Of a stretch of 64,000 nt of DNA, positions 2,306-3,904 are shown piece by piece. The stretch is from positions 2,790,001 to 2,854,000 of the forward strand of contig NZ_CP065373.1 of the NCBI RefSeq assembly GCF_015710575.1. The letters are read 5' to 3'. This DNA comes from Mycolicibacterium mengxianglii. GTDB taxonomy: Bacteria > Actinomycetota > Actinomycetes > Mycobacteriales > Mycobacteriaceae. The notes beneath the pieces were generated by a model that made no database searches, was not told the DNA's origin, and saw only the letters and a program-made list of their open reading frames with translations. Both the position numbers and the translations under genes were made by a program. Each line of letters starts with the position of its first letter. Positions within the stretch are counted from its first letter, which is position 1.

Positions 2306-3904
2306 ATGAACCCTTTGACCTCGGTCGACAGCGCGAATCAGCAATCCGCCGATGACCTGTCGGCCGAAGAGCTGGCCCGGCTGATCGCCATACTGGTCGA
2401 CGGGCGCACCGATCTCACGCGCCTGTGGTCCGCCGACGGGCGTGACGGGGCAGCAGACGATCCGCGGCTGATGACCGGAATCCTGTTGTACGGCTTCGCC
2501 ACCGGAGTCATGTCGTCGCGGACGATCGCGCGGAAATGCGCCGACGACGCCTGCTTTAGATGGCTGGCCGCGGGCCAGATCGTGGATCACCGTGCGATCG
2601 CACGATTCCGCAGGGTGCACCGGGACCCGTTGACGTCGCTGTTCGTCCAGACGCTGGAGCGGTGCCAGACCGCCGGTGTCGTTCGGCTGGGCCGCATCCC
2701 GCTGTACGGCATGACGAGGGACGCGATAGTCGAGAAAGTCCTGGACCTGATGGACGCCGCCGTACGAACCGATGCGGCCGAGGAGCGCACCCGCGTGAGC
2801 GCACCCGCAACCTCGAACGGGCGACGCGCCCTGGTCGGTGCCCTCCTGGTGGCGCTGATCTGCGCTGGCGGCTACACCGTGGCGGCGACCAAGCGCGTGA
2901 CGCTGTCCGTTGACGGCGCCTCGACGACAGTGTCGACGATGAAGTGGCGGGTGGGCGATGTCCTGCGGGACAACGGCTATTCCGTCGGTGAGCACGACGA
3001 GGTCAGCCCGAGCACCGACCAGTCGGTGCAGGCGGCCGACACCATCGTGCTCAGACGAGCCCGGCCACTTCAGGTCTCGGTCGACGGGCAACCGGGCGAG
3101 CAGGTGTGGACCACGGCGCTGACCGTCAATGACGCCCTCGGACGGCTGTCGATGGACGACGTCGCACCCGTCGCCGCGTCGCGTGCCGCCAGCGTGCCGC
3201 TGACCGGGATGGAGCTGCGGGTGGTGACCCCGAAACAGGTGCAGATCAACGACGGCGGCGCCCTGCACGAGCGGCGGCTGGCCGCAGCAACCGTCGGCCA
3301 GCTGCTGGTGGCCGCGGGCGCACCGCTTCAGGAGGCGGACACCGTCTCGCCGTCGGCGTCGACGCCGGTCGTCGCGGGTATGCACGTCGTGGTGACGCGG
3401 ATCAGGGTGCACAAGGTCTCCGAGCGCCTTCCCCTGCCTGCGCCGCTACGGCGCATCTACGACCCGACGATCAACCTCAGTCGCCGAATCGTCGACGACC
3501 CCGGCGCGCCCGGCGTCCAGGACGTCACATTCTCCGTATCGACGGTCAACGGCCGGGTGGCCGGACGGCAGGTTCTGGCTCGCCAGGTCGTCTCACCCGC
3601 CCGGGCTCAGGTGCAGCGGGTCGGTGCGAAGCCGGGTACTCAGCTGCCGCCGGTGAGAAACGGCGAAACGTGGGACGCGCTCGCCAAGTGCGAATCCGGC
3701 GGCAACTGGGGGATCAACACCGGCAACGGTTTCTACGGCGGCGTGCAGTTCACCCAGAGCACCTGGGAGAGCTTCGGCGGACTCCGCTTCGCGCCGCGCG
3801 CGGACCTGGCCACCCGTGAGGAACAGATCACGATCGCCGAGCTCACTCGGGTCGGTCAGGGGTGGGGCGCCTGGCCGGTGTGCAGTACGAGGGTGAGGCG
3901 CTGA
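2306..3904 (+). CDS. RpfB-like resuscitation-promoting factor with transposase-type N-terminal domain
   Basis: Residues about 172-532 match RpfB: a membrane anchor (about 175-193), three DUF348 repeats (about 196-360), a G5 domain (about 368-448) and a lytic-transglycosylase Rpf domain with [13 protein letters not shown] (catalytic Glu E463). Residues about 50-130 instead resemble the N-terminal DUF772 domain of IS1182/IS5-type transposases ([31 protein letters not shown]), with no DDE domain. Standard RpfB begins directly at the anchor; an in-frame GTG at 2795 with an upstream GAGG would give that normal form of 368 residues. The gene is not beside tatD or ksgA, the usual rpfB neighbours, so it is an extra paralogue. 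If translated from 2306 the extra domain would face the cytoplasm. Confidence 0.85.

Follow-up and report, generated by a model that had tools for sequence, protein, structure and literature searches.

Can a fragment of a transposase become a lasting part of a bacterial cell-wall enzyme? The question is raised by a gene of Mycolicibacterium mengxianglii. Within the window analysed here (a stretch of 64,000 nucleotides, positions 2,790,001 to 2,854,000 of NZ_CP065373.1), a single open frame on the forward strand (2306..3904) joins a DUF772 domain to an RpfB protein. RpfB is a muralytic cell-wall enzyme known for its growth-stimulating, 'wake-up' activity. In eukaryotes, the domestication of transposases as fusion proteins is well documented. 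To our knowledge, no cell-wall enzyme of bacteria has a conserved cytoplasmic region that is a transposase domain. The first-pass annotation of this locus offered two readings: either a piece of a transposase had been domesticated as a cytoplasmic domain of a wall enzyme, or the frame contained an in-frame IS scar and the real protein started at the GTG at position 2795.

Architecture and genomic setting of the chimera

The frame starts with ATG and encodes 532 amino acids plus a stop codon. Its N-terminal region (residues 1-165; 2306..2800) is derived from the N-terminus of an IS1182 transposase from about residue 15 onwards. The DUF772 core (Pfam PF05598; residues 52-115; 2459..2650) is matched at E 2.4e-9, with 37.5 bits against a cut-off of 23.1. 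The NCBIfam IS1182 transposase profile matches residues 19-131 through its positions 19-139 (E 3.9e-19), and the score of 68.9 bits is below the whole-protein cut-off of 270, as expected of a fragment. Residues 138-160 (2717..2785) form a probably helical stretch with an A-x-R-x-D-x-x-E motif that, according to the alignments, is also IS-derived and was retained although the middle of the transposase fragment was lost. The search for solved structures related to the N-terminal part gave no convincing relative (best E 0.2).

The remainder of the protein is an RpfB. A hydrophobic stretch at about residues 175-195 (2828..2890; best 19-residue Kyte-Doolittle mean 2.14) presumably serves as the membrane anchor, as it does in RpfB. 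It is followed by three DUF348 domains (2897..3412, outer limits approximate; three Pfam stretches, the best at residues 198-238), a G5 domain (Pfam; residues 370-442; 3413..3631) and the Rpf transglycosylase domain (Pfam Transglycosylas; residues 454-526; 3665..3883), which has relatives with solved structures and contains the catalytic Glu463 (3692-3694). The proposal that a DUF772-like segment and a complete RpfB, with E463 in its Rpf domain, share one open frame is thus confirmed by Pfam, by NCBIfam and by the 532 codons. Codon-position GC is similar in the two halves (0.67/0.50/0.84 and 0.71/0.54/0.86). The wall part of RpfB lies outside the cell, so the DUF772 part would lie in the cytoplasm.

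The same architecture recurs in the other fusions of the genus, 21 in all. The window's protein and all eight further fusions scanned have three DUF348 domains, G5 and Transglycosylas in that order, and DUF772 above the Pfam cut-off. A hydrophobic stretch ahead of DUF348 (best 19-residue Kyte-Doolittle mean 1.78-2.38) and a CES or CEA motif with the Rpf catalytic Glu are present in all 21. None of the nine fusions scanned has a DDE_Tnp match, which is present in the full transposase L044. Over roughly 15-20 residues at the N-terminus, the sequence is variable and the frame differs between members. An assembly artefact was ruled out, as the same fusion is found in other assemblies, several of them single-contig; a chance in-frame ORF was ruled out by homology and by the selection estimates given below.

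RpfB normally sits beside ksgA, as the first-pass annotation stated. That gene is a different one of the same genome: canonical rpfB is located at 4591956-4593080 of the 5.96-Mb genome, without DUF772 and with ksgA and ispE behind it in the family search, and the gene of the window is a second copy behind lnt. The chimera and the canonical copy are 62% identical over residues 173-529. No ksgA match was found in the fusion neighbourhoods examined, and a fusion at the canonical locus was ruled out, the domain being present in none of the 36 canonical genes examined. In canonical RpfB, a conserved short cytoplasmic tail is found just before the anchor (LNTLNKLHEARSPMLR in G163), which is replaced in the fusion. 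A loose form of this motif fits 30 of the 36 canonical loci, a set that includes L082 5954-7081. In its place, the fusions have a cytoplasmic region of about 150-230 residues.

The gene directly upstream is lnt (618..2267, forward strand; TIGR00546), an apolipoprotein N-acyltransferase paralogue whose last codons lie inside the IS remnant. It is directly upstream of the fusion in at least 8 of the 13 genomes of the window's clade; in G042 it lies about 100 kb from the fusion on the same contig. Genes of this lnt type are patchy in the genus (55 of 198 genomes) and also occur where the fusion is absent. On the other side, a short minus-strand frame (3843-4331) overlaps the chimera's 3' end and, by eye, resembles part of an aldo-keto reductase. 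Two small genes close behind the chimera (6227-6873) may be a toxin-antitoxin pair: the second is MazF-like (E 2.7e-9, below the equivalog cut-off), and the first has no family match. A catalase HPII-like gene lies further along, at 9394-11631 (E 1.4e-254, again below the equivalog cut-off).

Distribution, origin and probable spread within the genus

The chimera is present in 21 of 396 genomes of the genus (about 5%). A search of 198 of these genomes with the first 165 residues as the query returned both full transposases and frames continuing into RpfB. With a profile made from nine fusions, 57 of the 396 genomes were matched at E 1e-15 or better, and 21 of these hold the fusion. The remaining 36 have one RpfB hit each, the loci fetched from them are transposase-type frames or pieces, and they were counted as fusion-free. 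Named carriers are Mycolicibacterium sp. S2-37, Mycobacterium sp. PS03-16, IS-1496 and 852013-51886_SCH5428379, [Mycobacterium] manitobense, and two MAGs.

All 21 fusion genomes also have canonical rpfB. One copy was counted in each of 19 comparison genomes, with two further pieces at the contig start in G191; this second, split canonical copy (G191:C1:2515-3634), close to where the only contig of that genome begins, is perhaps an assembly overlap. In the RpfB survey, 386 of the 396 genomes gave a hit, and two or more hits were found in the 21 carriers and in G059 and G192. The latter two were excluded as second-rpfB genomes, since in each of them the hits belong to a single canonical gene whose halves lie on different contigs. 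A full-length second rpfB lacking the domain was found in none of the 396 genomes.

Outside the genus, 301 genomes from 31 genera of the family (its own included) gave 37 matches at E 1e-20, one of which is the window's own; among the other 36, RpfB was absent from the frame in all 29 that were fetched, which are transposase-like. Of 1111 plasmid records with a match, none spans 80% of the query in one place. In viral contigs, 80 loci were kept out of 138, with every match confined to residue 389 onward, and a second viral-contig search gave no relatives.

In a tree of the N-terminal part, the 21 fusions are split from 22 IS rows by a branch with support of 99/93, found in 98% of bootstrap trees, and the fusions nearest to the IS copies are those of G163, G263 and G274. 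In the RpfB tree, 20 of the 21 fusions fall together (99/98). As the fusions stand apart from the IS rows in the N-terminal tree, a single fusion event is likely. This is the simplest reading, and G055 is its weak point: in the RpfB tree its long branch falls to the canonical side, yet in the N-terminal tree it groups with the fusions, and a clear left end is absent from it.

The early-branching fusions preserve more of the transposase. Three of them (L074, L075 and L067) match positions 13-237, 14-227 and 12-229 of the 488-position IS1182 profile, that is, nearly half of it. In G163, G263, G274 and G359, judged by eye, the transposase text continues up to a lysine-rich segment that closes with QR, and RpfB follows from ALVGA or similar; in a related transposase, NFTDP comes next to the matching QR, after 294 of 492 residues. 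This junction would place the join between transposase and RpfB at the anchor. The 13 members of the window's clade retain the DUF772 core and have lost the middle of the captured transposase sequence. The window's N-terminus is 54% identical to an IS1182 element of M. frederiksbergense over residues 14-135.

The history of the fusion differs from that of the canonical gene. The canonical tree rejects the groups G000+G014+G052 (p-AU 0.001) and G066+G372 (0.0002), each of which is joined in the fusion tree; conversely, the fusion tree rejects G170+G372 (2e-5), which are joined in the canonical rows. All groups for these AU tests were chosen post hoc, after the trees had been inspected. The fusion of the window falls in a group with G014 and G052, from which the canonical gene of its genome is separated (p-AU 0.001, post hoc). 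The wall part of the fusion is more similar than the canonical gene in 20 of 210 genome pairs, although the former evolves faster overall (median identities 0.71 vs 0.78). These conflicts disfavour simple vertical inheritance and, together with the excess in 20 pairs, make horizontal transfer within the genus likely.

Selection on the N-terminal part and the surviving IS end

Pairwise omega was estimated by the Nei-Gojobori method for 11 fusion pairs, 6 canonical pairs and 6 IS pairs. In the fusions, omega is 0.25-0.66 for the N-terminal part and 0.10-0.47 for the wall part; it is 0.05-0.16 for canonical rpfB and 0.07-0.20 for the IS copies. Compared with the wall part, the N-terminal part has a higher dN in all 11 pairs and a higher omega in 9. 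Its omega is 0.25-0.52 in the window's clade (7 pairs) and 0.47-0.66 among the early-branching fusions (4 pairs). The upper 95% bootstrap bound is below 1 in six of seven pairs, with the early-branching pair G066/G372 reaching 1.06, and P(omega>=1) is 0.001 or less in the four pairs of the window's clade that were tested. These values indicate that the N-terminal part is under purifying selection, mostly weaker than that on the wall part and weaker than that on the IS copies.

The conservation is unevenly distributed. Among 102 columns conserved in the IS, 35 are kept in at least 90% of the fusions and 34 in fewer than half. The mean majority per ten-residue bin is 0.74-0.81 at residues 60-109, compared with 0.36-0.44 at residues 1-19 and 0.28-0.39 in the linker before the membrane. 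The first catalytic Asp is kept in 10 of the 21 fusions and missing in 11; in the window, the residue is Tyr134, whose position we take to be that of the DDE Asp of the LDGTK motif. This pattern indicates that what is selected is the DUF772 core, not transposition.

These results bear on the start site. The check called for was conservation of the N-terminal part across relatives. In 21 genomes this part forms an uninterrupted in-frame stretch that can be aligned, and all 11 pairs measured give an omega below 1. At the alignment column of the GTG at 2795, a start codon is present in the window only, with another codon in 18 fusions and a gap in 2; as a start for the family it was rejected, being available to 1 of 21. 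The idea that this GTG is the real start behind an in-frame scar draws on its position, 8 codons ahead of the aligned RpfB start in the window, and on the fact that some in-frame start codon lies between the DUF772 core and the anchor in every one of the 21 fusions. Against it, the frame upstream is conserved and has an omega below 1, and this earlier reading is now highly improbable. A start anywhere downstream of the DUF772 core is likewise unlikely, because of the conservation upstream.

The DNA in front of the gene retains part of the mobile element. Four M. frederiksbergense copies of a related element define its ends as GGAGCGTGGGTC(A/G)GTAA, adjoining CTAG. Ahead of the fusion genes, the order is the same as in the IS: repeat region, block 1, spacer, and block 2 with a CATGAT-like hexamer. 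In the window, block 1 (AACACGCCGGACAGGGTGAGC; 21 bp, 2249..2269) contains the stop codon of lnt (2265-2267), the spacer is 17 bp long (2270-2286), and block 2 (2287..2309), a putative promoter element, has the -10-like CATGAT at 2291-2296 and includes the ATG start at 2306. Allowing up to 5 mismatches, 18 of the 21 fusions have the block-1 motif (the exceptions are G052, G055 and G170), and a spacer of 17 bp is seen in 16 of them all.

Within the window's clade, ungapped mean identity is 0.47 in the repeat region, 0.87 in block 1, 0.48 in the spacer and 0.70 in block 2; between this clade and eight IS copies, the corresponding values are 0.26, 0.81, 0.41 and 0.50. Among the seven early-branching genomes, identity of the repeat region to the IS remains at 0.56. 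The terminal repeat is readable in G163, G274 and G263 and decayed in the window's clade. High identity in the blocks and low identity in the repeat indicate that the DNA needed for movement has decayed and that possible expression signals have been preserved. The lnt stop codon inside block 1 could partly account for the conservation of this block in the window; early-branching genes without an lnt match beside them also keep block 1 (0.79). No sigma-70 consensus promoter was found in 2150-2420, so it is the conservation of the blocks that suggests a promoter role.

An IS1182 element is recognised by two terminal inverted repeats and by mobility, and the remnant in the window does not show them. 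Allowing up to 1 mismatch, 19 of the 21 fusion genomes contain no IS terminal repeat and the other 2 contain one each; no clear set of further IS ends emerged from these genomes. Among the matches listed, perfect matches to block 1 occur beside fusion genes only; matches with 1 or 2 mismatches occur in the fusion genomes, and those with 2 mismatches also in all six fusion-free genomes. Block 1 is absent from the IS right end.

Interpretation and significance

We consider it probable that a duplicate of rpfB captured the left end of an IS1182 element together with the N-terminus of its transposase, and that the captured part now forms a cytoplasmic domain. An IS1182-family element, or its left half, would have been joined in frame to the duplicate, probably once and within Mycobacterium in the GTDB sense. 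The chimera would have retained the IS left end and about the first 290 transposase residues, replacing the short cytoplasmic tail of RpfB. The decay of transposition functions would then have affected the terminal repeat, the first catalytic Asp (in roughly half the fusions) and the segment between, while the promoter-like blocks would have been retained along with the DUF772 core and the A-x-R-x-D-x-x-E stretch. The gene also seems to have spread between species. The present product would be an extra membrane-anchored Rpf lytic transglycosylase with a transposase-derived cytoplasmic end. Of the two readings offered at the outset, domestication is supported by what characterises host-transposase fusions of this kind, namely conservation across species (here 21 genomes), loss of the parts for moving, and purifying selection. 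As to what the domain does, we tentatively favour a protein module for self-association or localisation, which would set where or when the additional wall enzyme acts, and we hold this with a little less than even confidence.

The main competitors concern what was gained. The gain may have been the promoter and start codon of the IS left end, through which a duplicate rpfB came to be expressed, with the domain as a tolerated and eroding passenger whose folding does no harm. Block 1 as the best-kept part of the IS end fits this idea, as do the excess of N-terminal over wall-part omega in most pairs, the high values among early-branching fusions and the loss of the middle in the window's clade. 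It is nevertheless somewhat unlikely, considering the lower N-terminal omega and the tested bootstrap probabilities in that clade, the strong conservation of residues 60-109 relative to both flanks, and the lack of any full-length second rpfB without the domain in the 396 genomes. A different possibility is that DUF772, which we assume to be a DNA binder, is tethered at the membrane and binds its own left end or other sites, coupling the state of the wall to transcription or holding the chromosome near the membrane. The region of about residues 47-137 has a net charge of +1 to +10 in all 21 fusions (+7 to +9 in the five IS copies examined), at least 90% of the fusions retain S70-S71-R72, R85 and F101-R102-x-x-H105, and the block is kept beside the gene, mostly at the 17-bp spacing. 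However, nearly all fusion genomes lack the terminal repeat, which the transposase presumably targeted, block 1 is not part of the IS right end, and among the block-1 matches listed no regulon stands out against the six genomes without the fusion, which makes DNA binding unlikely. The fuller version, in which the cytoplasmic half binds nucleic acid, perhaps its own left-end block, and the outer half cuts or senses peptidoglycan, is quite doubtful.

The capture reading sets the chimera between several known systems. Canonical mycobacterial RpfB (tail, anchor, three DUF348 domains, G5 and Rpf) likewise has the anchor, the three DUF348 domains, G5 and the Rpf catalytic Glu; it differs in its short tail, where the chimera has the long cytoplasmic region, and in its locus, as the chimera lies away from rpfB-ksgA in the neighbourhoods examined. 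With IS1182-family transposases, the chimera has in common the N-terminal part and the left-end DNA; it differs from them in the missing DDE domain (9 of 9 scanned), the fusion to a wall enzyme and the terminal repeat decayed in the window's clade. Eukaryotic host-transposase fusions such as CSB-PGBD3 and SETMAR likewise combine a host gene with a transposase part kept by selection, whereas the chimera is bacterial, pairs the transposase part with a membrane-anchored wall enzyme and keeps the N-terminal DUF772 region.

A duplication of rpfB has been reported in Mycobacterium sp. MCS, KMS and JLS (Mmcs_1712, Mkms_1758 and Mjls_1689; PMC3987819). It is likewise a second rpfB in environmental mycobacteria, and the main text of that paper contains neither 'transposase' nor 'fusion' (PMC3987819). 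A published description of a DUF772-RpfB chimera was not found in the openly licensed literature, which leaves out most subscription papers.

The chimera suggests that the 'rpfB duplication' of environmental mycobacteria may be more than a simple copy. Living species preserve the steps of a domestication, from early-branching fusions with a legible IS end and almost half of a transposase to later ones with a decayed repeat and a trimmed domain but a retained left-end block and DUF772 core, and this series of fusions is material for studying how IS elements are domesticated. The chimera also provides a cytoplasmic handle on the possible control of membrane-bound Rpf enzymes; and if the nucleic-acid-binding reading were true, it would be a link from the wall to DNA that arose by the capture of a bacterial transposon.
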